Below are positions 11,162 to 37,640 of a DNA stretch of 64,000 nt, piece by piece. The stretch covers positions 62,001 through 126,000 of the forward strand of contig JAGTQZ010000004.1 in the NCBI GenBank assembly GCA_018396705.1, given 5' to 3'. The notes below the pieces were generated by a model. It saw nothing but the letters and a program-made list of their open reading frames with translations, was not told where the DNA came from and did no database searches. Positions within the stretch are counted from its first letter, which is position 1, and each line of letters begins with the position of its first letter. Source of the DNA: Candidatus Bathyarchaeota archaeon (GTDB taxonomy: Archaea; Thermoproteota; Bathyarchaeia; Bathyarchaeales; Bathycorpusculaceae). The translations under genes and the position numbers were made by a program.

Positions 11162-13744
11162 ATGAGTATGCTGAATGATGGAACAATACGCTATACAAAC
11201 TGTACTAAAGGTGGGCCAGTATTTGTATTCGTCAAGGATGGAAGAATTGTTCGCGTTGAACCTCTTGAATTAAGCCCAGAAGATCCTGAATCATGGACCA
11301 TCGAGGCGAGAGGAAAAACGTTCAAACCACCAAGGAGAGCCAACGTGGCGGCTTGGACCCTGTCTGTAAGGGCTAAGGTTTACGCGCCAAATAGGGTTCT
11401 ACAACCACTTAAAAGGGTAGACTTCAACCCAGATGGGCAAAGAAATCCGGAGAACAGGGGCAAATCTGTATATGAGCCCATTAGCTGGGAAGAGGCCCTA
11501 AACATTTTGGCTTCGGAAATTGAACGTATAACTAAAAATTATGGACCCGCCGCTATATTGACGACAGCTTCCTCGCATCACAGCTGGGGAAACATAGGTT
11601 ACAGAACGAGCGCATATCACAGGTTTATGGCGATTTTAGGCGCAACCTACGCAGACCACAACCCAGACAGCTGGGAAGGCTGGTTCTGGGGCGCGATGCA
11701 CCATTGGGGATTTTCGTGGAGGCTTGGAATACCAGAACAGTATGACCTTCTCGAAGACGCCCTGAAACATTGCGAAATGATAGTCTTCTGGTCATGTGAC
11801 CCACACGCAACCCTTGGCACATATGGAGCCCATGAATCCGTTCCATGGAGATTTTGGCTCAAAGAGCTAGGCGTAAAAATGGTTTTTGTGGATCCGTTTT
11901 ACAATTGGACTGCAATTAACTTCGCCGACAAGTGGCTGGCTCCAAAGCCTGGAACAGACACAGCCTTAGCTTTGGCAATTGCCTATACATGGATAAAAGA
12001 AGGTACATATGACAAGGACTACATTGAAAAGCGCACTTTAGGATTCGAAAAATGGAGAAGCTACGTTTTAGGCGAAGAGGATGGGGTCCCAAAAACTCCT
12101 GAATGGGCGGAAAAAATATGTGACGTGCCCGCCCGCGAAATAAAAGCTCTCGCAAGGGAATGGGCGAAAAAACGCACAATGCTTGCCTGTGGCCGCGGTG
12201 GAATGGGAGGTGCTTGCAGAGCTGCATATGGCCATGAATGGGCCAGAATGATGGTTTTACTGTCGGCTATGCAAGGTTTGGGGAAGCCTGGGCGGAACAT
12301 TTGGGGGACAACGGCGGGCGCACCGTTCAATGCAAAGTTCTACTTTCCAGGTTATGCTGAAGGGGGAATATCAGGCGATGCAACAAACACGGCAGCATCC
12401 ACATTGCTATCAAGAGGAATAACAAAGATGCCCGTCAGATGGACTCTTAACGAGCCGCAAGGACAGCATGTCCTGAGACTTCTAATTCCTGAAGCAATTT
12501 TAAATCCGCCAGTGAAATGGAGGGGAAAGGGTTTTGCAGGAGCCTTCCCGGAAGCTCAATTTAAAGAGTATAAGTATCCAGAGGATGGTTTTTCGCCGGC
12601 TAAAATGTTCTGGAGATATGGGACATCGTATATTTCAACAATGACGGAAACCAACAGATGGGTTAAAATGTACAGAAGCCCAAAACTTGAGTTTGTAGTT
12701 TGTCAAGCAATATGGTTCGAGGGAGAAGCCAAATTTGCTGATTTAATACTTCCGGCATGTACAAATTTTGAAAGATGGGATATCGGAGAATGGGCAACGT
12801 CCGGCGGCTACACTCCACACTTATCCTACTCGACAAATCACCGCATCATAGTACTACAAATGAAATGCATGGAACCTCTAGGAGAGTCGAAATCTGATTA
12901 TCAAATATTCGCCGAGGTTGCTAAAAGACTTGGATTTTACGAAAAATATACAGAGAGTGGTATGACTGAGTTAGACTGGGTTAAAAGAATGTTTGAGGTC
13001 ACCGACTTGTCAAAGTACATTACGTGGGAAGAATTCTTTAAGAAAGGATATTTCGTCGTGCCCTTGCCTAAACCATACAAGTCCACTCCAGCATTGAGAT
13101 GGTTTGCCGAGGGAAGAAAAAGGGATACTCCAGATACAGGTCTTGCAGGAGGAAGAATGATGGGTATACCCGATGGGTATGGTTTAGGAACAACATCCGG
13201 CTTGTTAGAATTCGAAGCAAGTACATTAAAAAGATTTAACCCAGAGGATCCTGAAAGGCCGCCTATACCGAAATATATCCCCTCGTGGGAGGGCCCGGAA
13301 AGTTCTATTTCACAAAAGTATCCGCTTCAACTGATTTCGCCGCACCCAAGGTACTCGTTCTTCACGCAATATGATGGGAAGGACAGTTGGGTTAATGATA
13401 TCCCAGATCACAGGCGTAAAGGCAAAGACGGTTACTATTATTGGATACTCAGAATAAACCCCGTGGATGCAGATAAGCGGGGCATTTGCAACGGAGATCT
13501 CGTGAAAGTTTACAACGACAGAGGCGCCGTAGTATGCATGGCGGAAGTTACTGAAAGGGTGCGTCCCGGAGTTGTGCATGCCTACGAGGGAAGCGCGGTT
13601 TATGACCCAGTGGGTGAACCCGGGGAATCCCCGGATCGTGGAGGATGCATAAACCTTTTGACTCCTTCGCGTCTAATGTCTAAAAACGCCAGTGGAATGG
13701 CGCCTAACTCTTGTCTGGTGGAAGTATGTAAACTTGGAGGGTGA
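11162..13744 (+). CDS. athL: Pyrogallol:phloroglucinol transhydroxylase-like large subunit
   Basis: Molybdopterin enzyme of the DMSO-reductase superfamily, 860 residues. Known family facts: the Pelobacter enzyme moves a hydroxyl on the ring without net redox change, lacks the N-terminal Fe-S cluster, ligates Mo through Ser175 and uses His144, Asp174 and Tyr404. Seen here: the N-terminus (YTNCTKGGPVFVFVKDGRI) has no CxxCxxxC; SSHHSWGNIGY gives His139; NPDSWEGW gives Asp169-Ser170; FYFPGYAEGGISGD gives Tyr398. All align at a constant offset of 5-6. ADLILPACTNFERWD and RGGCINLLTP are further matches. A ribosome site (GGTGG) precedes ATG 11162. The small subunit follows at once. Substrate is inferred from residues and may be another polyphenol. 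Confidence 0.88.
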   Translation: MSMLNDGTIRYTNCTKGGPVFVFVKDGRIVRVEPLELSPEDPESWTIEARGKTFKPPRRANVAAWTLSVRAKVYAPNRVLQPLKRVDFNPDGQRNPENRGKSVYEPISWEEALNILASEIERITKNYGPAAILTTASSHHSWGNIGYRTSAYHRFMAILGATYADHNPDSWEGWFWGAMHHWGFSWRLGIPEQYDLLEDALKHCEMIVFWSCDPHATLGTYGAHESVPWRFWLKELGVKMVFVDPFYNWTAINFADKWLAPKPGTDTALALAIAYTWIKEGTYDKDYIEKRTLGFEKWRSYVLGEEDGVPKTPEWAEKICDVPAREIKALAREWAKKRTMLACGRGGMGGACRAAYGHEWARMMVLLSAMQGLGKPGRNIWGTTAGAPFNAKFYFPGYAEGGISGDATNTAASTLLSRGITKMPVRWTLNEPQGQHVLRLLIPEAILNPPVKWRGKGFAGAFPEAQFKEYKYPEDGFSPAKMFWRYGTSYISTMTETNRWVKMYRSPKLEFVVCQAIWFEGEAKFADLILPACTNFERWDIGEWATSGGYTPHLSYSTNHRIIVLQMKCMEPLGESKSDYQIFAEVAKRLGFYEKYTESGMTELDWVKRMFEVTDLSKYITWEEFFKKGYFVVPLPKPYKSTPALRWFAEGRKRDTPDTGLAGGRMMGIPDGYGLGTTSGLLEFEASTLKRFNPEDPERPPIPKYIPSWEGPESSISQKYPLQLISPHPRYSFFTQYDGKDSWVNDIPDHRRKGKDGYYYWILRINPVDADKRGICNGDLVKVYNDRGAVVCMAEVTERVRPGVVHAYEGSAVYDPVGEPGESPDRGGCINLLTPSRLMSKNASGMAPNSCLVEVCKLGG

Positions 13745-13749
13745 AAGCT

Positions 13750-14604
13750 ATGCGAAAGTGGGTTATGGTTATAAACGTGGACAGATGTATAGCTTGCTAT
13801 GCTTGCTTTATTGCATGTAAAGACGAATTCTGGGGCAATGACTATCCGCCATACTCTGCTGGCATAAAAAAACGGGAGCAAACACTTATAAGGCTTGAGA
13901 AAAGGGAACGGGGAAAATTTCCACATGTAAAAGTGGCATACATGCCAGTTCTGTGTATGCAGTGTGACAATCCTCCATGTATGAAAGCAGCTAAACATAA
14001 TGCTGTATATAAAAGGGAAGACGGAATAGTGATAATAGATCCGGTGAAAGCCTTTGGGCAGCAAGAGTTATTGAAAGCATGTCCATATAACGCAGTTTCA
14101 TGGAATGACGAGAAAAACCTACCACAAAAATGTACTTTTTGCATTCACAGAGTTGAGGAGGGTAAATTGCCTAGATGCGTGCAGGCATGCCCAAGTGGGG
14201 CACTGTTATTTGGTGATTTAAACGACCCAGAAAGTGAAGTAGGTAAAATCTTGAAGTCAAATCAAGCAGAGCCGTTTCACTCGGAATACGGCACCAAGCC
14301 AAATGTCTACTACATTAACCTCTACAAAATGACAAAATACTTCATAGCTGGGGATGTTGCATTCAAGGAAAGCGACGAATGTGCAGAAGGTGTAGAGGTT
14401 ACCTTGATAAATGAGGCAACTGGTGAAAGCAGAAAAGTAAAGACTGATGCCTTCGGAAGCTTCGAATTCGACGGACTAGAACCCAACACGAGATACCGAA
14501 TAAGACTGGATCATCCAGGATACACACCTAAAGAGATACCGCTGAAACTTGACGAGGCAGACATATACCTTGGATACATATTTCTAGAAAAAGTTAATAG
14601 ATAA
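13750..14604 (+). CDS. bthL: Transhydroxylase-like small subunit: ferredoxin with C-terminal beta domain
   Basis: Electron-transfer partner of the large subunit just upstream. Residues 1 to about 160 carry three 4Fe-4S sites of the DmsB type (CIACYACFIAC, CMQCDNPPCM, CTFCIH, and CVQACPSGA), though the second motif region CPYNAV has fewer Cys than in classical DmsB. The C-terminal 85 residues (FIAGDVAFKESDECAEGVEVTL to YLGYIFLEK) form a Cna-B/transthyretin-like beta domain. A ferredoxin fused to such a barrel is the hallmark of the Pelobacter transhydroxylase beta subunit. ATG 13750 is chosen because GGAGGG ends 8 bases before it; a GTG at 13741 overlaps the athL stop and is less likely. Confidence 0.87.
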   Translation: MRKWVMVINVDRCIACYACFIACKDEFWGNDYPPYSAGIKKREQTLIRLEKRERGKFPHVKVAYMPVLCMQCDNPPCMKAAKHNAVYKREDGIVIIDPVKAFGQQELLKACPYNAVSWNDEKNLPQKCTFCIHRVEEGKLPRCVQACPSGALLFGDLNDPESEVGKILKSNQAEPFHSEYGTKPNVYYINLYKMTKYFIAGDVAFKESDECAEGVEVTLINEATGESRKVKTDAFGSFEFDGLEPNTRYRIRLDHPGYTPKEIPLKLDEADIYLGYIFLEKVNR

Positions 14605-14680: not shown

Positions 14681-17143
14681 ATGAAATTGTTGTCAAGTCA
14701 GTCTCGCGTTAAAGTTGTGCGTACTTTTGCTTGGTCAGCTGGTCCTGGTTGCCACGGGGGTTGTGGAGTCGAGGTTTACGTAAGAGACGGAAAGCTTGAG
14801 AAGGTGGAAGGAGACCCAAAGAATCCCTTTAACATGGGCAGAGTTTGCGTTAGATGTTTGGCGATGAAACAATATTTTTACCACCCCCAACGACTGTTGT
14901 ACCCTTTGAAGCGGGTGGGAAACCGCGGTGAAAATAAATGGCAGAGAATCTCATGGAGCGAAGCCTTTGATATAATAGAGAAGAAATTTCGAGAAATAAG
15001 CGAGAAATATGGTCCTGAAAGTATACTTTTTTGTCAGGGAACGGGCAGAGATATAGGCGCCGCTATCACGTTACTTGCATATTCTGTCGGAAGCCCTAAC
15101 TGGATTCAGCTTGGGCTAAGCGGACATGCATGTTACACTCCAAGACTTGCCGCCATGTGGCTAACAACCGGCGAATATCAGGTATTAGATGCCTCCCAAT
15201 GGTTAGAGAAGAGATATGATGATTCAGAGTATACCCCGCCAAAATACATCATAGTTTGGGGTTACAACTTGCCAAGCACATGCCCAGATGGTTTCTTTGG
15301 ACACTGGATAGTTGACCTAATGAAACGAGGATCAAAGCTTATAGTAGTCGACCCAAGAGTAACATGGCTGGCTTCAAGGGCAGAAGTTCATCTGCGCATA
15401 CGCCCAGGAACAGATGGAGCTTTAGCTCTAGGTATGTTAAAGGTGATTATGAATGAAAAGCTTTACGATGAAGAGTTTGTTAAGAAGTGGACGAACGCCG
15501 CTTTTCTGGTTAGAACAGACTCTAAAAAGCTTCTCAGAGAAAGCGATATAAACTCAAGGGGTAAACGAGAAAACTTTGTTGTTTGGAACAAACGTGAAAA
15601 TAATGTGGCTGTATGGAACACAAAGAACCTAACCTATGAACCCGCAGACGTTGAGCCTGCCTTAGAGGGATATTTCAATGTTACTTTGTCAGATGGCACC
15701 ACTGTTAAATGTAAGACTGTGTGGACTGCATTAAAAGAAAGGGTAGCAAGCTACACACCGGAAAAAGTTGCAGATATTACTTGGATTTCAGATCCAAAGG
15801 ACGTAGTTGAAGCAGCGAGGCTTTACGCCAAAAACAAGCCGTCGGCAATACACTGGGGAGTAGCGGGACCAGACCATGTGGGACCAAATGCTATTCCAGC
15901 AGCCCAAGCAATAACTCATCTCTGGTGCGTCACGGGCAACCTAGACATCCCTGGTGGAAATGCAATTGCAAGATACGCTTTTGGAGTTATTGTTTATCCA
16001 TTCCACGCTGGAGTCGGTCCAGTATCTCCACCAGACACTTTCTATACAAAGAGATCAGGTGTATGGAAATATCCTATTATCAAAAATTTCCGATCCTGGG
16101 CTTTGTCTGACACGGCTTTAGAGCAAATGTTTACTGGTGAACCTTACCCAATAAAGGCGGTGTGGATGCAAACGTGTAACCCGATAGCAGGGCAAAGTCC
16201 TGAGCCTCGGAAACTTCTTGAAGGTTTAAGAAAATGCGACTTCGTGGTTGTCGTGGATGCTTTCATGACCCCCACTGCGGTTGCGTGTGCCGACATAGTT
16301 TTGCCCGTATGCACATTTATAGAGCGATATGGACTTAGAGCATGGTGGACCCCGCTGGAAGCTATGGTTAAGGCTGTTGAACCTTTAGGAGAAACAAAAT
16401 CTGACTACGAAATATGTTTAGAGCTCGCAAAAAGATTTAACCCCAAAATCAAGTGGAAAGATCCTAAAGAAATGTTTACAGATCTCGCAAAAGCCGCTGG
16501 CATAGACTATGACGAGCTATGCGAAAAAGTTTGGATGTTCACGCCAAAAGGCCACCCATCAAGGCCGTATAAAAGATATGAAAGGGCTCTGTTAAGGTCC
16601 GACGGTAAGCCTGGTTTTCAAACACCATCCGGAAAAATTGAGTTATGGTCCTCGCTATTAGAGGATTGGGGATTAGAACCGCTGCCATATTATGAGGAAC
16701 CACCATTCAGCCCAATAAGAACGCCTGAACTTTACAAGGAATACCCGCTTATTCTGGGAACTGGAAGGAGATCATGGGCGTTTTTCCATTCAGAGCATAG
16801 ACAAATTCCATGGCTTAGAGAGCTAGATCCGGATCCCATCGTGGAAATTAATCCTGAAACTGCAGCCAAATATGGCATTAAAGACGGAGATTGGGTGTGG
16901 ATTGAAAATCATTTAGGAAAGTGTAAAAGAAAAGCTGTGGTGACACCGATAATTCCTCCATGGATGGTTATGGCTCCTCATAATTGGTGGCTTCCGGAAA
17001 AGCCTGCCGCAGAGCCAAGCCTTTATGGAACATGGGAAATAAACGTAAACCAGCTGGTGCCCTATGGTTATATAGGTGAAGGTGGATTTGGAGCCCCTTA
17101 CAAGACAATGCTTTGCAAAATATATAAAGTCAAGGAGGAGTAA
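14681..17143 (+). CDS. Molybdopterin oxidoreductase, acetylene hydratase/dehydroxylase-like
   Basis: DMSO-reductase-superfamily catalytic subunit of 820 residues. The N-terminal cluster site has Cys24, Cys28 and Cys56 but Gly21 where the first Cys of CxxCxxxC is expected; Cys59 could be the substitute ligand. GSPNWIQLGLSGHACYTPR places Cys151 at the usual Mo/W protein ligand. VDPRVTWLASRAEVHLRIRPGTDGALALG, FMTPTAVACADIVLP and TPSGKIELWSS are standard family blocks and resemble acetylene hydratase. An insertion at about residues 285-345 precedes the YTPEKVADIT block. The 115-residue ferredoxin downstream is its likely partner. The reaction is unknown; a catechol dehydroxylase or another ring-hydroxyl enzyme would fit the context. 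Confidence 0.85.
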   Translation: MKLLSSQSRVKVVRTFAWSAGPGCHGGCGVEVYVRDGKLEKVEGDPKNPFNMGRVCVRCLAMKQYFYHPQRLLYPLKRVGNRGENKWQRISWSEAFDIIEKKFREISEKYGPESILFCQGTGRDIGAAITLLAYSVGSPNWIQLGLSGHACYTPRLAAMWLTTGEYQVLDASQWLEKRYDDSEYTPPKYIIVWGYNLPSTCPDGFFGHWIVDLMKRGSKLIVVDPRVTWLASRAEVHLRIRPGTDGALALGMLKVIMNEKLYDEEFVKKWTNAAFLVRTDSKKLLRESDINSRGKRENFVVWNKRENNVAVWNTKNLTYEPADVEPALEGYFNVTLSDGTTVKCKTVWTALKERVASYTPEKVADITWISDPKDVVEAARLYAKNKPSAIHWGVAGPDHVGPNAIPAAQAITHLWCVTGNLDIPGGNAIARYAFGVIVYPFHAGVGPVSPPDTFYTKRSGVWKYPIIKNFRSWALSDTALEQMFTGEPYPIKAVWMQTCNPIAGQSPEPRKLLEGLRKCDFVVVVDAFMTPTAVACADIVLPVCTFIERYGLRAWWTPLEAMVKAVEPLGETKSDYEICLELAKRFNPKIKWKDPKEMFTDLAKAAGIDYDELCEKVWMFTPKGHPSRPYKRYERALLRSDGKPGFQTPSGKIELWSSLLEDWGLEPLPYYEEPPFSPIRTPELYKEYPLILGTGRRSWAFFHSEHRQIPWLRELDPDPIVEINPETAAKYGIKDGDWVWIENHLGKCKRKAVVTPIIPPWMVMAPHNWWLPEKPAAEPSLYGTWEINVNQLVPYGYIGEGGFGAPYKTMLCKIYKVKEE

Positions 17144-17146
17144 CAC

Positions 17147-17494
17147 ATGAGCAAAACTTCCAAAGTAACGTATGGGCTGCTCATCGATTATGAGTATTGT
17201 ACAGGTTGCCACACGTGCGAGGTTGCATGCAAGCAGGAGAATAATCTTCCGGTGGGGGAGTGGGGGATAAAAGTTTTCGAAGTTATTCAGCAGTTGCCAA
17301 GCAAAAAACTCTACATTACATATATACCGTTCCCTACGGAGCTTTGCAACCTCTGCGTGGAACGTGTTAAGTCAGGAAAGCTGCCAGCCTGCGTAAAGCA
17401 TTGCATGGCAAACTGTATGAGCTTCGGACCCGTCGACAAGTTGGCTGAAAAACTCAAAGAGAAACCCAGACAAGTGCTTTGGGCGCCAAAATAA
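17147..17494 (+). CDS. Short 4Fe-4S ferredoxin partner of the upstream Mo enzyme
   Basis: A 115-residue iron-sulfur protein: CTGCHTCEVACKQEN near residue 18 is the classical first DmsB/NrfC motif, and CNLCVERV with CVKHCMANC supplies further ligands for a second cluster. It is much shorter than typical DmsB subunits (about 200 residues). The ATG follows AAGGAGGAG by a few bases and starts 3 bases after the upstream stop, so the two are co-translated. It would pass electrons to or from the 820-residue enzyme. No membrane subunit follows, so the pair is probably soluble or docks on another complex. Confidence 0.88.
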   Translation: MSKTSKVTYGLLIDYEYCTGCHTCEVACKQENNLPVGEWGIKVFEVIQQLPSKKLYITYIPFPTELCNLCVERVKSGKLPACVKHCMANCMSFGPVDKLAEKLKEKPRQVLWAPK

Positions 17495-17517: not shown

Positions 17518-18420
17518 TTACTTCGTAGCGGAAACGATGCTGGCTTCAACGGCAGATGCTCTGGTGCACACTTTTTTCCTACACTTAACACTTAACTCTT
17601 TAACCAGAGTCTTGTATGACGTAAGCTTCTCTAGGGCTTCATTCCATGCACCGGATTTTATTTCTGAATGTAAGATTCTTGTTCTCTCGAGGGCTATGGC
17701 TTTTTGTGGGCAAACCTCCTGACAAGCTCCGCAGTATATGCAGAATTCTTCATCCACGAATGGTTTTCCTTCTTTATCAAGGCTTATGCACTTTGAAGGA
17801 CAAACGTCAACGCAAGCTTGGCACTTTTCAGGGCATAAACTTGTATTCACTTTTATGATTCCGTTAATAGGCTTAACGACGTTAATAGCGCCTAGCGGAC
17901 ATGCTACCTCACACTTTTTACAGAAAATGCAGAGCTGTTTATACACTTGAACGTTAACAATTTTCCGGTTTTCGATGGGCCCCTCACCATCTGTGATTAC
18001 CTTTACCGCCTTTGTTGGGCAAATTTCTTGGCAGGCCAGCTTGCAAACAGGATTGCATAAATTGATGTCAACTGAAATATCCTTAATAATCTTGGGGAAA
18101 GCCTCACTCTCAATGACCGGTATTCTTTCTTTTCCATCAATTTCTATTTTAATCGCGTTTAGAGGACATAAAACTACACATTCACCGCAGAAATGACATT
18201 TTCCAGCATCTATGTCAATTTGACATTTTTTTGCTAACCTGCCTTCATTAACTGTTGCTGATGATTTTGTCACAGCTTTTTCTGGGCAAATTCTTTCGCA
18301 AATCCCGCATCCGATGCAAAGCTCAGAGTCTAATGTTAGAACTTGACGTGTTGATAGCGTAGCCCTTTCTAATGCCACTTTTTTACGTGATCTGACTTTA
18401 ACGGTCGCTCTTGAAACCAT
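17518..18420 (-). CDS. Polyferredoxin with six 4Fe-4S clusters
   Basis: Soluble electron-wire protein of 300 residues with six ferredoxin motifs in a row: CIGCGICERICP, CHFCGECVVLCP, CNPVCKLACQEICP, CIFCKKCEVACP, CPEKCQACVDVCP and CIYCGACQEVCP. The third and fifth have altered Cys spacing, as in methanogen polyferredoxins (MvhB, FwdF). The N-terminus is basic and the last 60 residues lack clusters but contain CRKKVC. It faces away from hdrA across a 199-base gap, so it could connect HdrA with the Mo/W enzymes or with soluble ferredoxin. FwdF-like would be an alternative name, but no fwd genes are near. Confidence 0.88.
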   Translation of the reverse strand: MVSRATVKVRSRKKVALERATLSTRQVLTLDSELCIGCGICERICPEKAVTKSSATVNEGRLAKKCQIDIDAGKCHFCGECVVLCPLNAIKIEIDGKERIPVIESEAFPKIIKDISVDINLCNPVCKLACQEICPTKAVKVITDGEGPIENRKIVNVQVYKQLCIFCKKCEVACPLGAINVVKPINGIIKVNTSLCPEKCQACVDVCPSKCISLDKEGKPFVDEEFCIYCGACQEVCPQKAIALERTRILHSEIKSGAWNEALEKLTSYKTLVKELSVKCRKKVCTRASAVEASIVSATK

Positions 18421-18458
18421 TTAAGCTTCCAACTTAGAGGATTTTAGGAAACTATTCT

Positions 18459-18468
18459 ATGATATAAA
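18459..18468 (-). promoter_or_regulatory. TATA box for the polyferredoxin gene
   Basis: On the minus strand CTTTATATCA lies 39-48 bases before the ATG at 18420, in the divergent gap with hdrA. Confidence 0.45.
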
Positions 18469-18567
18469 GCTTTACTGCTTTAATCGCTAGCTTCCGATGG
18501 TGTCAAATAAAAATAGGCGACAAATTTTGAGTAAAGAATGGGGATAACCAGCCTATGAATCAGATAG

Positions 18568-18576
18568 ACATATAAG
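18568..18576 (+). promoter_or_regulatory. TATA box for hdrA
   Basis: ACATATAAG lies about 45-52 bases before the hdrA start at 18620 in the divergent gap shared with the polyferredoxin gene. No strong ribosome site is seen before the ATG. Confidence 0.45.
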
Positions 18577-18619
18577 AATTGATGAGGGAAAACATACAAG
18601 ACATTGCCAGAAAACCTAA

Positions 18620-24509: not shown

Positions 24510-24986
24510 ATGGCTTTGCAGGATAACAAAGAAAGTCTGACAAAAAGAATAGTTGAGATAAGCGGGCAAAACGTGTTTTCATGCAACTTATGTGGTAAAT
24601 GCACAGCAGGCTGCCCTATCGCAGAGGTTATGGATATAAAGCCTCATCAGGTCGTGAGGCTGGTTCAAATAGAACCTGAGATCCTGCTAAACTCTAGAGC
24701 GATATGGCTTTGCGCATGTTGCCTTGCTTGTGTAACCCGTTGTCCCAAACAGATAGATATCCCCAAGCTGATGGAGTCTCTCAGAATCATGATTCTGTCA
24801 AAGGGAACGGATTTCCTTGAATATACTCCGGATTTGTTAACATTGCTTCCTGTGCAAGCAATGGTTGCTGCACGAAACAGGTACACCTCGGTTAACTTGC
24901 CATCTGTGCATCCAAGTATGAGACTGGAGAAATACTTCACTCGCGAAAGGATATTCGCCTTAATTAAAGGTGAAACTCGCAAATGA
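24510..24986 (+). CDS. hdrC: HdrC-like iron-sulfur subunit
   Basis: Subunit that wires HdrA to HdrB. Two 4Fe-4S motifs are present: Cys25/28/31/35 (CNLCGKCTAGCP) and Cys68/71/74/78 (CACCLACVTRCP), in a helical 158-residue protein, a normal length for HdrC. The segment LLTLLPVQAMVAARN matches the helical tail of the family. The stop overlaps the hdrB start by four bases (ATGA). It is separated from hdrA by the opposite-strand Mo-enzyme pair, an unusual split arrangement. Confidence 0.9.
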   Translation: MALQDNKESLTKRIVEISGQNVFSCNLCGKCTAGCPIAEVMDIKPHQVVRLVQIEPEILLNSRAIWLCACCLACVTRCPKQIDIPKLMESLRIMILSKGTDFLEYTPDLLTLLPVQAMVAARNRYTSVNLPSVHPSMRLEKYFTRERIFALIKGETRK

Positions 24987-27446: not shown

Positions 27447-28132
27447 TGGGCTCAAAGGAAAGCGACTTTGAAGGCAATCTCTTACTAGACGTATTAAAAA
27501 ACTGCTGTATCATATACGCTTTACTTGGAAGAATTTATGAGAAAGAGGTGGAGACCGACTTCCTTGAAGCTCTCAGCAAACGCATGGCGCTTCTCAAGAG
27601 CCAAAACATTGGTGACGAGGAATTGGAAAGGGGTATAAGATTATTAGGTAGTTACTTAAGTGCGTGGAAAAGTCGTGGCTTTAAAAACGCCGAGCCAGAG
27701 TTAGCGGTTGATTATGCCAATCTTTTTCTGGGGGTAAAAGGGCTACCTCACCCATCAGAATCCTCCTATAAATGCGGCTTCATGATGGCGAACCCAAGCG
27801 AGGAAGTGCTTAAAATCTATCAGAAAGCAAACCTTAACCTCAAGGAGAATTATATAGAACCCGCAGACCACATTGCAGTTGAACTCTATTTCATGGCGCA
27901 CCTCTGCCAAAAAACCGCGGAAAGAATAGCTGACAACAATATGGACGAAGCGAAAAAATGTTTGCAGATCATGCAAAACTTTTTGGAAAAGCATCTCCTT
28001 TCATGGATTTATGCGTTTACCGAGGATGTTCTAAAGTCGGCTGAAACAGAATTTTACAAAGGCGTCGCTGTAATTACTAAAAGGTTCATTGAGCTTAACA
28101 GGACCTTAATAAAACGTGTGTTCAAACTTTAA
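27446..28132 (+). CDS. TorD/DmsD-family chaperone for a Mo enzyme
   Basis: All-helical protein of 228 residues with the TorD-family block EPADHIAVELYFMAHL (compare PDHxxxELxFM) and FLEKHLLSWIYAFTEDV, which matches the WxxxFxxxV end of the family. Such chaperones bind apo-Mo enzymes and help load bis-MGD. It sits directly upstream of the divergent transhydroxylase-type large subunit at 28257, so that is its likely client; the other Mo enzymes here are further candidates. ATG 27446 overlaps the preceding stop (TAATG), indicating coupling. Confidence 0.85.
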   Translation: MGSKESDFEGNLLLDVLKNCCIIYALLGRIYEKEVETDFLEALSKRMALLKSQNIGDEELERGIRLLGSYLSAWKSRGFKNAEPELAVDYANLFLGVKGLPHPSESSYKCGFMMANPSEEVLKIYQKANLNLKENYIEPADHIAVELYFMAHLCQKTAERIADNNMDEAKKCLQIMQNFLEKHLLSWIYAFTEDVLKSAETEFYKGVAVITKRFIELNRTLIKRVFKL

Positions 28133-28256: not shown

Positions 28257-30956
28257 ATGAATGTTAAAGAATTATCAAATATAGTTTCAGCTTTGGGTGT
28301 TGCCTTTGACGGAGCGGTTTCCGTCCAAGAAACACCGTTAAAAGAGGAAACTGTGCGGAACCCTAGCACTGACAACGTAAGAGTTTGCTACGTAAGCCAT
28401 GGCTTAGGTGGCATTTCTGGTTCTGCTGAACCCTTAGAAGTTCACGTTAAAAACGGCAGGATATTGAGGATAAAACCTCTCCATTTCAACGGTGTGAGAC
28501 TTTACGAGATAAAGGCTCGAGGAAAAACCTTCACCCAGCCCGCTAAAACTTTGCCCTACTGGGTTAGCTTAGCATACAAGAAACGCGTGTATTCACCAAA
28601 CAGGGTTAGGTATCCTCTAAAGAGGGTGGATTGGAGCCCTGAGGACAGGAACCCACAAAACAGGGGTAAAAGTGGTTTTGTCCGAATAACATGGGATGAA
28701 GCTTTAGACATAATCGAGAAGGAACTGAAACGTATAAAAGAAACATACGGAATGTGGTCAGTGCTCGTGCAAGACGACGGCCATGGGCAGGGTGGAGCGG
28801 TACAGACACCTCACGGGGTCCATCATGAATTATTCCGCCAACTCGGAGGGTGGACGCAACAAGTTAGGAACCCAGACAGCTGGGAAGGTTACTACTGGGG
28901 CGCAAAGCACGTGTGGGGCATGGAAGGCCCGCATGCAGGTCTTCCTCACCAAGACGCCATATTCGATGACATCCTTGAAAACACTGAAGTGTTAATCTTT
29001 ACTGGATGCGATCCTGAAGCAACAGTTGCGGGGTTTGCAGGTCAAATCGGAAGCATCATGTGCCGATGGTTTAAGGAAGCTGGAATTAAAATAGTAGCAA
29101 TATCTCCGGACTGCAACTTTGCAAATGCAATACACGCTAACAAATGGATTCCAATAAGGCCCAATACGGACGGAGCGTTATATTTAGCAATTGCATACTT
29201 ATGGATTAAAAACGGGACATACGACAAAAATTTCGTTCAAACTCACTGCGTTGGCTTTGAAGAGTTCCAGAAATACGTTATGGGAGAAGAAGATGGGGTG
29301 CCGAAAACACCAGAATGGGCTGAGAAAATAACTGGAATACCCTCTAGAGTAATAAAGGCGCTGGCTAAAATGTGGGTTAAAAAGCGGACGTCTCTTGCGC
29401 TTTTCTTTGGCGGTCCAAAAATCAGGGGGCCATATTCGCATGAAACAGCGAGGCTTGAGGTAATATGCTTAGCAATGCAAGGCTTAGGCAAACCTGGAAG
29501 ACAGCTCCTAAGAGGATTTTATCCAGCAGCCACCGGCAAAAGAATAGCGCCTATCCCCCAGTACCCAGAGACCACTAGAACTTTCGTCAGCAGTCACATG
29601 GCTAGGTATACGGTCACGGCGGTTTCCCCAGTGATTGTTCCGAAGGTTCTTGTGGCTGATGCCATCTTGAACCCGCCGATAACCTGGTATGGTACAGGAG
29701 CTATAGCTGCAACACGTGAAGATCAATTCAAGAAATATACGTTTCCACCGGAGGGGCATCCCGGCATACGCATGATTTGGAATGCTAATGGCTGTTACAT
29801 AACCTGTTGGAATAGCAAAATATTAGAGGCTTATCGAAGCCCGAAAATAGAGTTTATTGTAGCGGTTACCCCATGGCTTGAAAACGAGGCCTTGTTTGCT
29901 GATTTAATACTTCCAGCGCAGACAATATTTGAGCATGAAGACTTGATTATAACAAGCAGATCCGCCGTAAGTGCGACCACATATCAGGAAAAATGCATAG
30001 AGCCTATAGGTGAATCTAAAAGCGATTATGAAATATGTCGCCTAGTAGCCCAAAGGATGGGCATTGGAAACGCATTTCCCTCGCAAGAAGAACTCATGAA
30101 GAGCTTATATGAAGCGTCTTATGCTTTCACAAAATATGGGATAAGCTGGGACGAATTCAAGAAGAAGAAAAAAATAGTCATTCCAGACCATCCAACATGG
30201 GAAGAGTGGAAGCAAATCCAAAACAATATAGCTGCGACTTACGGCCTAACATGGGGTGCTAGGCCCGGCTTGACATGGTTCTACGAATTGCCAGAAGGGA
30301 AGGGCCTTGAAACCCCGACTGGTAAACTTGAAATCGTTTCTAAAGGGTTAGCTGAACATTTTCCAGACGACGATGAAAGACCCCCTCTACCACGTTACAT
30401 ACCATATGGTGAAACCCATCAAGAAAGCCTACTTCATCCAAGAGCCAAGAAATACCCATTACTTTTGGAGTCAAACCATCCAAAATGGAGATTCCACGCG
30501 CAAGGAGACGACATAACCTGGTTGAGGGAAATTCCCACCTGTAAAGTAAAGGGGCCTGACGGTTACCTCTACGAGCCTGTTTGGATTCATCCAAGCGACG
30601 CCGCCAAGAGGGGAATAGAAACTGGAGACATAGTGAAAGTGTACAACGAACGAGGAACAGTGCTCTGCGGAGCCTATGTTACGGAGCGGATAATGCCTGG
30701 AAGCGTTCTTGTGCATCATGGGGCGAGGGCTGACTTAATATCTGTAGATCCGCTTATAGACAGGGGTGGAGCCATTGACCTAATTGTTCCACCTAAGCCA
30801 ATGTCGAGGAATGCTGTGGGCCAAGTGTGCAGCGGCATCCTCGTGGAGGTTGAAAAAGTGGACATTTCTGAACTTATGAAAAAGTATCCTGAGGTGTTTA
30901 AGCGTCCAATACATCCGGATGTCGGTCCATATTATGAAACATGGGTTATGGGGTGA
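28257..30956 (+). CDS. Divergent transhydroxylase-type molybdopterin large subunit
   Basis: Second AthL-type subunit, 899 residues, with an N-terminal extension of about 40 residues before VRVCYVSHGLGG. Like the first it lacks the CxxCxxxC cluster site and keeps NPDSWEGYYWG (Asp207-Ser208, the Mo-ligand Ser) and a His in DGHGQGG (His176) near the position of catalytic His144 of the Pelobacter enzyme, with a one-residue shift. The FYFPGYAEGG block that carries the catalytic Tyr is absent: the corresponding region reads GFYPAATGKRIAPIPQYP. Substrate is therefore probably different from the first enzyme. Blocks ADLILPAQTIFEHED and DRGGAIDLIVP confirm the subfamily. Chaperone upstream, small subunit downstream. 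Confidence 0.86.
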   Translation: MNVKELSNIVSALGVAFDGAVSVQETPLKEETVRNPSTDNVRVCYVSHGLGGISGSAEPLEVHVKNGRILRIKPLHFNGVRLYEIKARGKTFTQPAKTLPYWVSLAYKKRVYSPNRVRYPLKRVDWSPEDRNPQNRGKSGFVRITWDEALDIIEKELKRIKETYGMWSVLVQDDGHGQGGAVQTPHGVHHELFRQLGGWTQQVRNPDSWEGYYWGAKHVWGMEGPHAGLPHQDAIFDDILENTEVLIFTGCDPEATVAGFAGQIGSIMCRWFKEAGIKIVAISPDCNFANAIHANKWIPIRPNTDGALYLAIAYLWIKNGTYDKNFVQTHCVGFEEFQKYVMGEEDGVPKTPEWAEKITGIPSRVIKALAKMWVKKRTSLALFFGGPKIRGPYSHETARLEVICLAMQGLGKPGRQLLRGFYPAATGKRIAPIPQYPETTRTFVSSHMARYTVTAVSPVIVPKVLVADAILNPPITWYGTGAIAATREDQFKKYTFPPEGHPGIRMIWNANGCYITCWNSKILEAYRSPKIEFIVAVTPWLENEALFADLILPAQTIFEHEDLIITSRSAVSATTYQEKCIEPIGESKSDYEICRLVAQRMGIGNAFPSQEELMKSLYEASYAFTKYGISWDEFKKKKKIVIPDHPTWEEWKQIQNNIAATYGLTWGARPGLTWFYELPEGKGLETPTGKLEIVSKGLAEHFPDDDERPPLPRYIPYGETHQESLLHPRAKKYPLLLESNHPKWRFHAQGDDITWLREIPTCKVKGPDGYLYEPVWIHPSDAAKRGIETGDIVKVYNERGTVLCGAYVTERIMPGSVLVHHGARADLISVDPLIDRGGAIDLIVPPKPMSRNAVGQVCSGILVEVEKVDISELMKKYPEVFKRPIHPDVGPYYETWVMG

Positions 30957-30962: not shown

Positions 30963-31808
30963 ATGGGAAAAGCCTTTGTTATAGACGTGGCTAAATGTAA
31001 CGGCTGCTACTGTTGCCAAATAGCCTGCAAGGATGAGCACGTAGACAACGACTGGAGTCCCTATGCAAAACCGCAGCCGGACACTGGACATTTTTGGTTG
31101 AAAATTGAGGAACGTGAAAGAGGTAGTACCCCAAAGGTGAGAGTAACATACATACCGCGTCTCTGCATGCACTGCGACAACCCACCATGCATTACAGCTT
31201 GTTCTGTAAGGGCGATATCCAAAAGAGCAGATGGAATAGTTCTCATAGATCCAGTAAAATGCAATGGATGCAAACAGTGCCTTAACGCTTGCCCCTACGG
31301 TGCCATATACTTTAACGACCAGTTTAAGATCGCTCAGAAATGCACCATGTGCGCCCATATATTGGATGGAAAAGATCCGCTTGTTAAGATTCCAAGATGC
31401 GTAGAGGTGTGTCCGCACAATGCAATAGTTTTCGGAGAATACGCAGAACTGAAAAACCTTATTGAAAAGGCGGAGATTCTGAATCCTGAATATAATACTA
31501 AACCAAGGGTTTATTATCTAAACTTGCCGAAACCGTTCATAGCTGGAGAGGTTTACGATCCGGAGCTGGATGAATGCATTGAAGGCGCAAAAGTAACGGC
31601 GATAAATTCGAAAACTGGGAAAACCTATTCCACAGAAACCGACGAGTTTGGAGATTTCTGGCTAGAAAACTTGGAATGGGGCTGCACATACAAAATTAAC
31701 ATAATAAAGGAAGGCTACATTCCATGGTCGATGGATGAGGTAAAAACGGATAAAGACGTAAACCTAGGCGAGATAACACTGCTTAAAGATAAAACCAAGA
31801 AACATTAA
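30963..31808 (+). CDS. Transhydroxylase-type small subunit, second copy
   Basis: Partner of the 899-residue subunit, 281 residues. Ferredoxin part: CNGCYCCQIACKDEH, CMHCDNPPCITAC, CNGCKQCLNACPYG, CTMCAH and CVEVCPHNA, so all four Cys groups look complete, unlike the first copy, where the third group is reduced. From about residue 195 a beta domain (PFIAGEVYDPELDECIEGAKVTA to NLGEITLL) of the Cna-B/transthyretin type follows. GGGGTGA just before the ATG is the ribosome site and overlaps the upstream stop. The same two-part design as at 13750 marks the pair as a paralogous transhydroxylase-type module. Confidence 0.88.
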   Translation: MGKAFVIDVAKCNGCYCCQIACKDEHVDNDWSPYAKPQPDTGHFWLKIEERERGSTPKVRVTYIPRLCMHCDNPPCITACSVRAISKRADGIVLIDPVKCNGCKQCLNACPYGAIYFNDQFKIAQKCTMCAHILDGKDPLVKIPRCVEVCPHNAIVFGEYAELKNLIEKAEILNPEYNTKPRVYYLNLPKPFIAGEVYDPELDECIEGAKVTAINSKTGKTYSTETDEFGDFWLENLEWGCTYKINIIKEGYIPWSMDEVKTDKDVNLGEITLLKDKTKKH

Positions 31809-31990
31809 ATTTTCAGTTTGGAAAAATTTTGATCGATTTATTCCCATTTTCTTTTTATGGGAGTAGCCAGATGTCTGCATATAGCACCCGAAGAAGACGG
31901 TTCCTTAGTAAAAACCTAACATGTTGGCAAGCGTGTTAATTATTTACATTGTTAAACCAAAAACAAAATAAGGGTGGTTCATTTTCACTT

Positions 31991-32875
31991 ATGGCGGAGA
32001 GTGAATGTATGAGTGAAGATATACTTGAAAAATATTTGCACGGGTTCTTAGACAAGAAAGCACTTGGCAGTCCAGAAGAAGCTCTTAAAAAACCATCAGT
32101 GAAAATCTTTGGAAAGAACGTTGAAGTCTTCGACCTAACGCAGCCTTTCAGTGGAATGACGCCGATATGGCCTTATGCAGCTGGAAACCCGCAGGTCACA
32201 AGGCTACGTTCCCATAACCACGATCGTGTCGTAGCGCATTCGATAACGCATACAATGCACACTGCGACACACGTAGATGCACCGCTTCACGTTGAAGAGG
32301 ATTATCCATCAATTGACCAAATGCCTCTGGAGCGTTACATAGGCGAAGGTGTTGTTGTGGCTATTCCTAAGAAAGCATGGGAAGTTATTACCCCTGAAGA
32401 CCTTGAGAAAGTTGACCCTCCAATACAAGAGGGCGACATAGTGATAATCAACTCTGGCTGGCATGTTTACTATGGAGACAGCACCCGCTACTTCTGCTAT
32501 GCTCCGGGACTATACAAGGATGCGGCTGAATGGTTTGTTAAGAAGAAAGTCAAGGGCGTTGGCGTTGATCAACCTGCTATGGACCATCCGCTTGGAACAA
32601 GACTTGTCCAAACCGCAGGAGGCTTCCAACCTCTTCTACCATGGTTGATTGATGCGTACAAAAAAGTTACTGGGCGGGATGTTTACCAAGATTTTCCATA
32701 CTGGGAGCCGTGCCACAGAATACTATATACACATGGAATCTTTGGAATAGAGAATGTTGGAGGAGATATAGATAAGGTTACTGGCAAAAGATGTGTTATA
32801 GCGGCTTTTCCGCTTAAATGGCTTGGCGGCGACGGATCAATGGTTCGCGTTGTAGCTATGGTTGAGAAAAAGTAG
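31991..32875 (+). CDS. Cyclase-family (PF04199) metal-dependent hydrolase
   Basis: Metal-dependent amide/C-C hydrolase family that includes kynurenine formamidase. The metal site HTMHTATHVDAPLH contains the family His-x3-His-x-Asp-x3-His spacing, and GVDQPAMDHPLG is the second conserved stretch. The ATG at 31991 lies 12 bases after AGGGTGGT; another ATG at 32009 follows GGAGAGTGA, and either could be used. The SDR gene follows after 12 bases. From memory, the dihydrophloroglucinol cyclohydrolase of clostridia is in this family; placed next to an SDR and transhydroxylase genes, ring opening of a reduced phloroglucinol is a plausible role (inference). Kynurenine formamidase is unlikely without tryptophan genes. 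Confidence 0.85.
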   Translation: MAESECMSEDILEKYLHGFLDKKALGSPEEALKKPSVKIFGKNVEVFDLTQPFSGMTPIWPYAAGNPQVTRLRSHNHDRVVAHSITHTMHTATHVDAPLHVEEDYPSIDQMPLERYIGEGVVVAIPKKAWEVITPEDLEKVDPPIQEGDIVIINSGWHVYYGDSTRYFCYAPGLYKDAAEWFVKKKVKGVGVDQPAMDHPLGTRLVQTAGGFQPLLPWLIDAYKKVTGRDVYQDFPYWEPCHRILYTHGIFGIENVGGDIDKVTGKRCVIAAFPLKWLGGDGSMVRVVAMVEKK

Positions 32876-32887: not shown

Positions 32888-33658
32888 GTGAAAGATTTGT
32901 TCAGGCTTGATGGCAAGATTGCTGTTGTGATAGGCGGTGGTGGAGGCATCGGAAGAAACCTTGCTGAGGGATTAGTTCAGTACGGTGCAAAGGTCGTCAT
33001 AGCTAGCAGAAACCTGGAAAACCTGGAAAAAGTGGCTAGGGAAATAAGCTTGACTTTCAACGGCGAGGTTACTGCTTTTCAGGTTGATGTTACAAGTGAT
33101 GAAAGTGTAGCGCGGCTAAGAGATCAAGTTGTGTCAAAATACGGTACTGTTGACATTCTAGTAAATTCGCAGGGATACAATGTAAAAAGCTCCGCAGTGG
33201 AATTTCCAACAAAAGAGTGGAATAATCTTTTTGACATTAACGTTAAAGGCACAATGCTGGCCTGTCGAGAGTTTGGAAAGGTAATGATTGAAAAAAGAAA
33301 GGGGAAGATAATCAATATATCGTCAGTAAGAGGAATTCGGGCGACAAAATGGCCTGGTAACCTTGGCTACTGCACAACAAAAAGCGCTGTGGACATGCTT
33401 ACCAAGGCTTTAGCGGCTGAATGGGCTCAATATAACGTTAACGTTAACGCCATTGCTCCAGCGTGGGTGGATACAGGATTTTCTCCAAGCTTGAGAGACC
33501 CTGCACGTTTGAAAATAGCTTTAGAAAGCATACCCATGGGAAGAATAGCTACACCAAAAGATATCGTCGGCGTATGCGTGTTCCTCGCATCACCCGCATC
33601 TGACTATATAACTGGCCAAATAATCTATGTGGATGGTGGACTTACTCTCATAGGGTGA
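32888..33658 (+). CDS. Short-chain dehydrogenase/reductase
   Basis: Classical SDR of 256 residues. The nucleotide loop is GGGGGIGRN (usually TGxxxGIG), and the basic ASRNLENL after strand 2 suggests NADP(H) preference. Catalytic Ser lies in NISSVRG and Tyr-Lys in YCTTK; the C-terminus has DYITGQIIYVDGG. The GTG start follows GGGAGGACAA. It forms an operon with the cyclase-family gene. Phloroglucinol reductase and 3-hydroxy-5-oxohexanoate dehydrogenase are both SDRs, so either step would fit; a 3-oxoacyl reductase cannot be excluded. Confidence 0.9.
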   Translation: MKDLFRLDGKIAVVIGGGGGIGRNLAEGLVQYGAKVVIASRNLENLEKVAREISLTFNGEVTAFQVDVTSDESVARLRDQVVSKYGTVDILVNSQGYNVKSSAVEFPTKEWNNLFDINVKGTMLACREFGKVMIEKRKGKIINISSVRGIRATKWPGNLGYCTTKSAVDMLTKALAAEWAQYNVNVNAIAPAWVDTGFSPSLRDPARLKIALESIPMGRIATPKDIVGVCVFLASPASDYITGQIIYVDGGLTLIG

Positions 33659-35620: not shown

Positions 35621-36418
35621 ATGTTGAGCTTTGAATTTAAACGCATAATATATGAAAAGAAAGACGGTGTTGCATGGATCACTTTGAACAACCCTGAGCG
35701 ATATAACGCCCTTGACTCTGAAATGCGAAAGGATTTAAAAATTGCTTTAGAAGACGCTGGCAAAGACAACAATATAGTTGCAGTTGTCATTAAAGGATCA
35801 GAAAAAGCATTTAGCGCTGGAGGCGATGTTCGTGCTTTCGCAGAAATGAAGCCCTTTGATGTTCTAGAATTGATCAGAGAACTTGGAACAGCATTTGTTT
35901 TGGGAAAAATTATCCGTGACATGCCGAAACCGGTCATAGCCGCCGTAAGCGGTTACTGTCTCGGAGCGGGGTTTGAGCTGGCGCAGGCATGCGACATAAT
36001 ATTTGCTTCAGAAGACGCTGTTTTCGGCCAACCTGAAATAAACGTTGGACTAATCCCTGGTGGTGGTGGAACCCAGAGGCTGCCAAGGCTTATTGGAGAA
36101 AAGAAGGCCAAGGAACTAATATTTACCGGAGATAGACTATCTGCCAAAGAAATGGCTGAGTTAGGCCTTGTTAACAAGGTTGTTCCATCGGATCAGCTTA
36201 TGAATGTTGTCAACGAGTTCATTGGGAAAATTAAAAGTAAAAGTCCACTTGTTATTGGAGTCGCCAAAGAGGCGGTGAACCAGTCATTAGAAACAAGCTT
36301 GTCCGAGGGATTCAAATACGAGGCACAGCTCTTTGCACAGCTATTCAGCACAGAAGACCAAAAGGAGGGGGCAAAGGCTTTCCTTGAAAAAAGAAAGCCT
36401 GTCTGGAAAGGAAAATAG
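35621..36418 (+). CDS. Enoyl-CoA hydratase/isomerase (crotonase) family protein
   Basis: Crotonase of 265 residues. Oxyanion-hole segments are FSAGGDVRAFAEM and SGYCLGAGFELAQACD, and both catalytic Glu are retained: in GFELA and in FGQPEINVGLIPGGGGTQRLPRL. This supports real hydratase activity on a 2-enoyl-CoA. ATG 35621 follows GAGAGGTG. It stands as a single gene between the thiolase operon (opposite strand) and the CoA-transferase. Exact acyl chain not readable from sequence. Confidence 0.92.
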   Translation: MLSFEFKRIIYEKKDGVAWITLNNPERYNALDSEMRKDLKIALEDAGKDNNIVAVVIKGSEKAFSAGGDVRAFAEMKPFDVLELIRELGTAFVLGKIIRDMPKPVIAAVSGYCLGAGFELAQACDIIFASEDAVFGQPEINVGLIPGGGGTQRLPRLIGEKKAKELIFTGDRLSAKEMAELGLVNKVVPSDQLMNVVNEFIGKIKSKSPLVIGVAKEAVNQSLETSLSEGFKYEAQLFAQLFSTEDQKEGAKAFLEKRKPVWKGK

Positions 36419-36459: not shown

Positions 36460-36494
36460 CCTTGATGTGAGAAACTTACCCAAAGTGATCCAAC

Positions 36495-37640
36495 ATGATA
36501 AAGGCACCACTAGAAGGAATAAAAGTTCTAGATTTTACCCATGAAGTAGCTGGACCGCACTGTACGATGCTTTTGGGTGATCTTGGCGCTGAAATAATCA
36601 AAGTCGAAGTACCGGGAAGAGGCGACAGAGGAAGACACTGGGTCGGCATGAAAGAAACCATATTCATAACAAACAACAGAAACAAGAGAAGTATCGTTTT
36701 AGACCTCAAAAGCGAAGAAGGAAGAAAAATAGCGTTTGAATTGGCAAAAAAAGTTGATGTCCTAGTTGAAAACTTTGTTCCCGGGACCTTGAAAAAGTTT
36801 GGCCTAGATTATGAAAGCGTCAAAAAGGTTAACCCAAAGATAGTTTATTGTTCAATTTCAGGGTATGGGCAAGACGGCCCGTACAGCAGTCGTCCGGCGT
36901 GGGATCCGATCATCGAGGCTGAGTCTGGGTTGATGTCGCTTACTGGAGACCCTGAACCATGTTTGCCTTCAAGGATACCTGCCTCAATCATAGACTATGG
37001 CGCCGGTGTCTATGCAGCTTTAGCAATAGTTTCGGCTTTACTATACAGAGAGAAAACCGGGAAAGGACAGATGATTGACCTTTCAATGTTGGATGTTTCC
37101 GCGTTATGGGCTGGATACTGGATTGCCTACAGCTCAATAACAGGGGAAGTCAGGGAAAGAATGGGTTCCGCTGCACCAGTTGGAGCACCCTACCAAGTTT
37201 TCAGAACTAAGGATTCATACATTTTCATTGCAGCCTTTGAAGATGAGCACTGGAAGAAGTTCTGCCAAGTTATAAAAGCAGAAGACCTTTTAAAAGACCC
37301 TCTATATGCAACGAGAGAAAGCAGAGCTACGAACAGAAAAACCCTCATAGAAAAGCTTAGCAAGATAATCAGCACATGGAACACTAAAGATTTGGTGGAC
37401 GCTCTAGTTGCTGTGGGCGTGCCATGTGCCCCCGTAAACAATACGTTGGAAGTGGCAAACCACCCGCAACTGCTCCACCGAAACATGATTGTCGAAATCG
37501 AATACAAGGGACAGAAAGTAAAAATTCCAGGGATACCCTTCAAATTCTCGGAATGTCCGCTAAAAATTAGGCATCTCCCACCAGCGGACGTGGGACAACA
37601 CACAGAAGAAGTTCTCCGTGAACTCGGGCTAAAACAATAG
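36495..37640 (+). CDS. CaiB/BaiF (family III) CoA-transferase
   Basis: Transfers CoA between carboxylic acids through an aspartyl-CoA anhydride. Conserved N-terminal blocks are IKVLDFTHEVAGPHCTMLLGDLGAEIIKVE and NRNKRSIVLDLKSEEGR; the catalytic Asp is in ASIIDYGAG, where family III enzymes place it, after SGYGQDGPYSSRPAWD. The 381-residue length is standard. Together with the crotonase, thiolase and SDR nearby it could activate a ring-opening product or other organic acid. Fatty-acid, carnitine, aromatic and bile-acid CoA-transferases all share this fold, so substrate is open. Confidence 0.92.
   Translation: MIKAPLEGIKVLDFTHEVAGPHCTMLLGDLGAEIIKVEVPGRGDRGRHWVGMKETIFITNNRNKRSIVLDLKSEEGRKIAFELAKKVDVLVENFVPGTLKKFGLDYESVKKVNPKIVYCSISGYGQDGPYSSRPAWDPIIEAESGLMSLTGDPEPCLPSRIPASIIDYGAGVYAALAIVSALLYREKTGKGQMIDLSMLDVSALWAGYWIAYSSITGEVRERMGSAAPVGAPYQVFRTKDSYIFIAAFEDEHWKKFCQVIKAEDLLKDPLYATRESRATNRKTLIEKLSKIISTWNTKDLVDALVAVGVPCAPVNNTLEVANHPQLLHRNMIVEIEYKGQKVKIPGIPFKFSECPLKIRHLPPADVGQHTEEVLRELGLKQ

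Follow-up and report, generated by a model that had tools for sequence, protein, structure and literature searches.

The way in which archaea of the class Bathyarchaeia cleave aromatic rings is still under question; for the lignin-degrading B. ligniniphilus, which by the evidence is of the same class as the genome discussed here, a 2025 review regards the ring-cleaving mechanism as unknown (PMC12694404). The subject here is a 64,000-nucleotide stretch (the window) of a Candidatus Bathyarchaeota archaeon (assembly GCA_018396705.1, contig JAGTQZ010000004.1), which is C4:62001-126000 of the 455-kb contig C4 in a 1.71-Mb draft genome of nine contigs that is 96.7% complete. A reading of the window from its letters alone (the sequence-only reading) had proposed that the genes at 11-38 kb form an archaeal route for the degradation of pyrogallol and phloroglucinol. 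That proposal is largely upheld by sequence comparison, with the canonical reductase, dehydrogenase and lyase genes located on another contig, C5, outside the window. We consider it probable that the genome encodes an archaeal pathway, like one known step by step from bacteria, for the oxygen-free breakdown of the plant-tannin phenols pyrogallol and phloroglucinol, of which the window would hold the transhydroxylation step and a paralogous CoA-thiolytic ring-opening branch.

The phloroglucinol route reported by Zhou et al. in 2023 comprises phloroglucinol reductase (PGR), a short-chain dehydrogenase/reductase (SDR); dihydrophloroglucinol cyclohydrolase (DPGC), a cyclase-family enzyme with Trp20 and Tyr22; TfD, of the 3-hydroxyacyl-CoA dehydrogenase family; and TAL, of the BKACE family (PMC10470551). 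Reference phloroglucinol clusters were chosen by gene content (Novosphingobium pLA3, Rhizorhabdus and Acetoanaerobium), and cluster-linked homologues served in place of the RhL, CsPGR and CsDPGC sequences. The genes named in the sequence-only reading are present where it placed them and belong to the families that it gave; all are long open frames, and their family assignments were confirmed with Pfam and NCBIfam. The genes on which the argument turns are the following.

11162..13744, + strand: AthL1, transhydroxylase large subunit (4v4c_A homology, active site, tree)
13741..14604, + strand: BthL1, small subunit with three 4Fe-4S clusters and a C-terminal CarboxypepD_reg domain (4v4c_B, PF13620)
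28257..30956, + strand: AthL2, diverged AthL-family Mo subunit (active site, tree)
30963..31808, + strand: BthL2, small subunit with four 4Fe-4S clusters and a C-terminal domain (4v4c_B homology)
31949..32875, likely ATG start 31991, + strand: DPGC paralogue (DPGC2; cyclase family, PF04199)
32888..33658, + strand: PGR paralogue (SDR2)
33769-35001, - strand: thiolase (NCBIfam, Pfam)
35003-35425, - strand: DUF35 partner of the thiolase (NCBIfam, Pfam)
35621..36418, + strand: crotonase/enoyl-CoA hydratase family protein (PF00378)
36495..37640, + strand: CaiB/BaiF family III CoA-transferase (PF02515, 418.8 bits)

The two molybdenum enzyme pairs

AthL1 matches the large subunit of the Pelobacter acidigallici transhydroxylase (4v4c_A) over its full length with 1086 bits, the next-best match being 265, and the top Protein Data Bank (PDB) match of BthL1 is the small subunit 4v4c_B (202 bits). 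Seven positions, which we take to be those of the active site in the crystal structure and whose numbering agrees with the sequence (H144, Y152, R153, D174, S175, W176 and Y404), are all identical in AthL1. The same seven residues are found in the AthL copies of this genome on C5 and at C4:176 kb and in G166, an archaeal genome of the same order and a different family. The identity is informative because most bacterial AthL relatives examined differ at two of the seven positions (HHYDSWY). One 4Fe-4S site lacks all four ligands in both the P. acidigallici protein and BthL1, so that three clusters remain, and this loss is common to the C5, C4 and bacterial pathway-linked small subunits. Cys557 is replaced by Ser in AthL1, which branches apart from the bacterial AthLs in the tree. 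The 1.7-Mb genome holds three AthL-class paralogues (window, C5 and C4:176 kb), and an AthL 89% identical to the window copy is encoded on a contig of Candidatus Bathyarchaeota JZ_bin_36.1. On these comparisons the pair 11162/13741 is a close AthL/BthL relative and a predicted pyrogallol-phloroglucinol transhydroxylase.

The sequence-only reading had counted two transhydroxylase-type pairs; this holds for the pair just described but not for 28257/30963, which was rejected as a transhydroxylase. AthL2 matches the 4v4c large subunit with 459 bits in two pieces and lies in a separate, strongly supported clade. It retains H144, D174, S175 and W176, but Y152 and R153 are replaced and the PGYAEGG loop is absent. 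BthL2 (200.7 bits to 4v4c_B) has an additional CxxCxxC and keeps all four cluster motifs intact, as do the small subunits paired with AthL2 that were checked in G166, in G172 and in the bacterium Desulfopila aestuarii. Transhydroxylation requires no net electrons, and the four intact clusters of BthL2 suggest a net redox reaction.

AthL relatives with the HHYDSWY residues were also seen at loci L014-L072, many of them from marine Gammaproteobacteria, Rhodospirillaceae and Acidobacteriota, mostly with no pathway genes seen nearby; where checked, the small subunits of this class lack further cluster cysteines. About a dozen AthL-family matches, of both the AthL and AthL2 classes, occur in the 2.6-Mb genome of Actinobacteria RBG_16_64_13 (G582, the genome of locus L013).

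The candidate phloroglucinol genes in the window and on other contigs

With the DPGC of the complete Novosphingobium cluster the window cyclase shares 52% identity, and it carries the metal motif HxxTHxDxPxH together with the equivalents of W20 and Y22 (W-P-Y in the W-x-Y substrate motif). In trees it is nested within the DPGC group as sister to the archaeal canonical DPGCs, and not with unrelated amidases, which bears out the sequence-only reading. The best match of the window SDR in the plasmid collection is the PGR of the Acetoanaerobium phloroglucinol cluster (44.5%). GKxM and SSxRG are present in the window SDR and, slightly varied, in the cluster PGRs, and are absent from six other SDRs. 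Where Zhou et al. give TR(S/N) as the NADPH motif, the window SDR has ASRN, and the cluster PGRs themselves vary (GRT, ARD, AGN). The tree places the window SDR in the cluster-linked PGR radiation, within a group of 16 rows; the node separating these from other SDRs reaches only 83/88, with few outgroups. By sequence, both window proteins are best called paralogues of DPGC and PGR. The closest names in PDB and NCBIfam are arylformamidase/isatin hydrolase for the cyclase and gluconate 5-dehydrogenase for the SDR. The first was rejected, as kynurenine formamidase or isatin hydrolase, on weak matches and the wrong clade, and the second as a resemblance in name only.

The remaining genes are found elsewhere in the genome, as neither TfD nor TAL is encoded in the window. 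On C5 a row of genes consists of two CoA-transferase subunits, an AMP-binding acyl-CoA synthetase (probably an acetoacetyl-CoA synthetase), PGR, a cupin, TAL and TfD, and beyond TfD lie a Liv importer, an aldehyde ferredoxin oxidoreductase-like gene, a DAPG/phloretin-hydrolase-family gene and AthL/BthL. The C5 PGR is 50% identical to that of Acetoanaerobium, and TAL and TfD were matched at 40% and 42%. At C4:174-179 kb, about 80 kb downstream of the window set, a DPGC that is 60% identical to the Novosphingobium enzyme is followed by AthL-BthL; each of the two close DPGC genes in this genome has AthL-type genes beside it. The canonical four (PGR, DPGC, TfD and TAL) are all in the genome, with DPGC beside AthL on C4 and not beside PGR. 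From pyrogallol down to acetyl-CoA units, every step thus has a candidate gene in this genome, and the canonical branch has sequence support at each of its steps; the CoA branch of the window is one that we infer from gene content.

The DAPG/phloretin-hydrolase-family gene on C5 (PF18089, 161 bits; locus L117, 18944-19573) has a counterpart in G445, an archaeal genome from elsewhere in the phylum (L149, 1732-2517), and its presence near phloroglucinol genes suggests acylphloroglucinols as substrates. A RidA-like (Ribonuc_L-PSP) gene lies near AthL (L119, 12193-12660), and a similar-looking frame is seen, likewise close to AthL, in a second archaeal genome (L129, 1800-2294).

Conservation of the neighbourhood and the surrounding genes

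In G166, contig C19 carries AthL2/BthL2 and the six consecutive genes CaiB-DPGC2-SDR2-ECH-DUF35-thiolase (ECH, enoyl-CoA hydratase). The window has the same six genes, also consecutive, in another order and orientation and at 73-83% identity (CaiB 73%, crotonase 78%, thiolase/DUF35 81% and 83%); as the six stay together in a changed arrangement, it is probably the gene content and not one transcript that is conserved. Other contigs of G166 carry DPGC-TfD-TAL-cupin-PGR followed by a synthetase-like frame (C69) and AthL1 with an Hdr block (C29). In G445 the canonical genes and DPGC2-SDR2 are together on one 12-kb contig, and in G440, another member of the phylum, the canonical genes occur with a Liv importer. 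Two loci of unrelated bacteria (L010 and L011) have DPGC, cupin, PGR, TfD, TAL, AthL and BthL adjacent on one strand. About 40 kb of D. aestuarii holds AthL2/BthL2, two cyclases and two AthL/BthL pairs, and on its minus strand AthL and BthL are in one run with an SDR2 relative, an acyl-CoA-synthetase-like frame, ECH, DUF35 and thiolase; the window crotonase is 46% identical to the ECH of this run. The co-location is not due to chance, as the six-gene block recurs in another family and the pathway genes are neighbours in unrelated bacteria. Loss of the neighbourhood in relatives had been named beforehand as evidence against the route, and the set, or one similar to it, was instead found kept together in G166, G445 and Desulfopila.

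The other features of the region are listed below.

1538..5311, mixed strands: Mo-cofactor block, with MobB at 1538-2308 (- strand) and MoeA at 2381-3658 (+ strand) (Pfam MobB, MoeA_N, MoCF_biosynth, MoeA_C)
3678-5311: MobB-like and MobA-like frames, part of the Mo-cofactor block, named by eye
Within 5325-10293, - strand: two ATPases and two permeases of a Liv-type ABC importer
8797-10293, + strand: Liv substrate-binding protein (NCBIfam branched-chain substrate-binding protein)
14681..17494, + strand: Mo/W oxidoreductase (290 bits to 2e7z, acetylene hydratase) and short Fe-S protein
17518..25834: electron-transfer block of polyferredoxin, HdrA, methyltransferase, Fe-S/PhsA-like Mo enzyme, HdrC and HdrB (NCBIfam)
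25782-27446: DUF1284 protein and AstE/AspA-like deacylase, between the Hdr block and TorD
27431..28132, + strand: TorD-like Mo-enzyme chaperone (NCBIfam TorD, 97.8 bits, under its cut-off)

The Liv importer (5325-10293) and the Mo-cofactor genes MobB and MoeA adjoin the set, as the sequence-only reading had it. The Mo-cofactor block supports the presence of Mo enzymes and is not specific to the pathway. The Pfam Molybdopterin domain has 15 matches in the genome, a large number for 1.71 Mb; the final two seem to share an open frame. The Liv substrate-binding protein is 68% identical to one on the G166 contig with the six-gene block, and a relative of the TorD-like chaperone adjoins AthL2 on that contig (C19). 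The electron-transfer block, which adjoins AthL1 in G166 C29 (L124) and AthL2 in G172 C14 (L130), is possibly an electron-bifurcating partner. The 14681 protein has a paralogue with an Fe-S gene on contig C8 (L121, 6074-9090). Gut catechol dehydroxylases are likewise closest to acetylene hydratase (PMC7028382), and by analogy the 14681-type enzymes may be ring dehydroxylases. More oxidoreductases related to 14681 were seen at C4:52-57 kb (L122) and C4:442.9 kb (L131), some with a short Fe-S partner. The UbiD family has a single match in the genome, at C6:80867.

A recently transferred island of odd composition was rejected, as the GC content is 41-48% throughout the window, even across the region and with no step at 11-38 kb. 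A tRNA-Glu lies at 37932, just past the gene set, and no search for further signs of integration was made. A sigma-70/terminator scan gave nothing exceeding shuffled sequence.

The proposed route, its rivals and known systems

From the family identities, active-site conservation, cluster counts and neighbourhoods seen in the sequences we infer a scheme with all of its reactions, with substrates for AthL2 and for SDR2/DPGC2, and with an order in which the CoA branch would proceed. The archaeon would ferment or oxidise trihydroxybenzenes. AthL1/BthL1 and the two genomic paralogues would carry out a Mo-dependent hydroxyl transfer, without net redox change, that turns pyrogallol into phloroglucinol. 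The keto tautomer of phloroglucinol would be reduced to dihydrophloroglucinol by an NAD(P)H-dependent SDR (the C5 PGR, or SDR2 in the window), and a Mn-dependent cyclase-family hydrolase (the C4:174 kb DPGC, or its window paralogue) would then open the dihydrophloroglucinol ring by a retro-Claisen reaction, giving 3-hydroxy-5-oxohexanoate. In the canonical lower branch on C5 (TfD, TAL, the probable acetoacetyl-CoA synthetase and the CoA-transferase) this product would be oxidised to triacetate and cleaved with acetyl-CoA. In the window lower branch (CaiB, crotonase and thiolase/DUF35) the acid would be CoA-activated, possibly hydrated or dehydrated, and cleaved by thiolysis, while SDR2 may act in ring reduction or in dehydrogenation. 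AthL2/BthL2 would be redox-active, hydroxylating or dehydroxylating a related polyphenol and passing it into this branch; electrons would be exchanged through the four Fe-S clusters of the pair, and the Hdr block nearby is perhaps the partner in this exchange. We would give an even chance that the window genes (AthL2/BthL2, the PGR-like and DPGC-like enzymes, CaiB, crotonase and thiolase/DUF35) constitute a previously undescribed CoA-dependent polyphenol branch, parallel to the triacetate lyase route and shared by archaea and Desulfopila-like bacteria.

Several observations weigh against this pathway. The route is predicted here from gene sequences, and C5 and C4 are separate contigs of the draft. 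The window cyclase has WPYAAG in its pocket instead of WPYFxD, and the substrate loop of the SDR reads APAWVDTGFSP instead of APTxxxTPLT; because these segments are changed, the substrate of the two enzymes may not be phloroglucinol. The crotonase has no clear place in the route if ring opening yields 3-hydroxy-5-oxohexanoate. Of the 257 genomes of the class, only 4, the window genome included, have a close DPGC, and only 4 have AthL-family genes. No equivalent of Trp16, a residue of CsTAL pointed out by Zhou et al. (PMC10470551), was found in the archaeal TAL; it is likewise missing from several bacterial cluster TALs and proved not to be diagnostic.

Alternatively, AthL1 and the canonical C5/C4 genes may serve pyrogallol and phloroglucinol, with the AthL2-DPGC2-SDR2-CoA block forming a pathway of its own for another meta-polyphenol. 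The ring could be of the resorcinol, hydroxyhydroquinone or alkylphloroglucinol type, and the acid released by ring opening would be activated with CoA and hydrated before the SDR oxidises it and the thiolase cleaves it. The different pocket of AthL2, a small subunit whose four clusters suit net redox, DPGC2 and SDR2 subclades apart from the canonical copies, and the full canonical set already present elsewhere in the genome are all in keeping with this, and crotonase, thiolase and CoA-transferase fit a sequence like beta-oxidation. However, DPGC and PGR remain the groups into which DPGC2 and SDR2 fall, the block showed no acyl-CoA dehydrogenase, and the place of the Desulfopila SDR2 relative between ordinary AthL/BthL and ECH-DUF35-thiolase favours phloroglucinol. 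We regard a separate substrate as possible, somewhat short of an even prospect; it does not exclude the preferred pathway, as the two overlap for AthL1 and the C5/C4 genes.

It is unlikely that the AthL-family enzymes are hydroxylases or reductases of anaerobic respiration or detoxification rather than of carbon catabolism. Such a role would suit the many bacterial HHYDSWY relatives without pathway genes seen nearby and the Hdr block beside AthL1, but the copies in the window (AthL1), on C5 and on C4 have exactly the residues of the P. acidigallici enzyme together with its three-cluster small subunit, and the last two are flanked by pathway genes. Less credible still is an incidental co-location of generic paralogues, namely an amidase/kynurenine-formamidase-like cyclase, a sugar or acyl reductase and a lipid or amino-acid thiolase block. 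The nearest PDB and NCBIfam names point that way, probably through missing reference entries, but the cyclase and SDR have cluster-linked DPGC and PGR proteins as their close homologues, the trees agree, and six genes were kept together through rearrangement.

If the pyrogallol/phloroglucinol pathway is correct, a member of the class would have a near-complete, testable route that leads from pyrogallol by way of phloroglucinol to acetyl-CoA units and consists of transhydroxylase, reductase, ring-opening hydrolase, dehydrogenase, lyase and importer, and the CoA branch would supply candidate genes for thiolytic cleavage of the ring-opened product. Canonical-type genes are also present in other members of the phylum (G440 and G445); at 4/257 genomes the route would account for a niche and not for the whole class. 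The literature searched gave no report of a phloroglucinol pathway in Bathyarchaeia. The papers that join Bathyarchaeota with phloroglucinol were an aquifer study, which treats its pyrogallol gene under Hydrogenophaga and heterotrophic metabolism and not under archaea, and a superfamily paper merely citing a Bathyarchaeota work.

The sequence-only reading knew of no described archaeal phloroglucinol pathway, but a cluster in Archaeoglobus has been reported bioinformatically (PMC10470551), so that archaeal occurrence is not new in itself; the present genome shares that occurrence and differs in phylum. With the PGR-DPGC-TfD-TAL cluster of the Clostridium scatologenes type it shares the four families and the cupin, the W-x-Y of DPGC and the PGR motifs. 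Here, in contrast, the genes are split over contigs, DPGC is linked to AthL genes and not to PGR, and additional DPGC and SDR paralogues are tied to CaiB, crotonase and thiolase/DUF35. AthL1/BthL1 resembles P. acidigallici AthL/BthL (4v4c) over the full length of both subunits, in the seven residues, in the Ser Mo ligand position and in the three-cluster small subunit with its C-terminal domain; it differs in being archaeal and on a separate branch, in Ser at Cys557, in having paralogues in the genome and in the Hdr block alongside. RhL of the Azoarcus anaerobius resorcinol hydroxylase is named in PMC10100899. AthL2/BthL2 and RhL/RhS would be alike as AthL-family Mo enzymes with a Ser ligand, and net-redox hydroxylation of that kind would suit the four-cluster pair. 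For P. acidigallici, CoA-dependent cleavage of triacetate by a CoA-transferase and a thiolase was long ago proposed biochemically, and to our knowledge its genes have not been identified. Such a route would use the two enzyme types that the window block offers, while a crotonase would not be expected there, and by analogy the window may hold genes for a similar CoA-transferase/thiolase route via triacetate.

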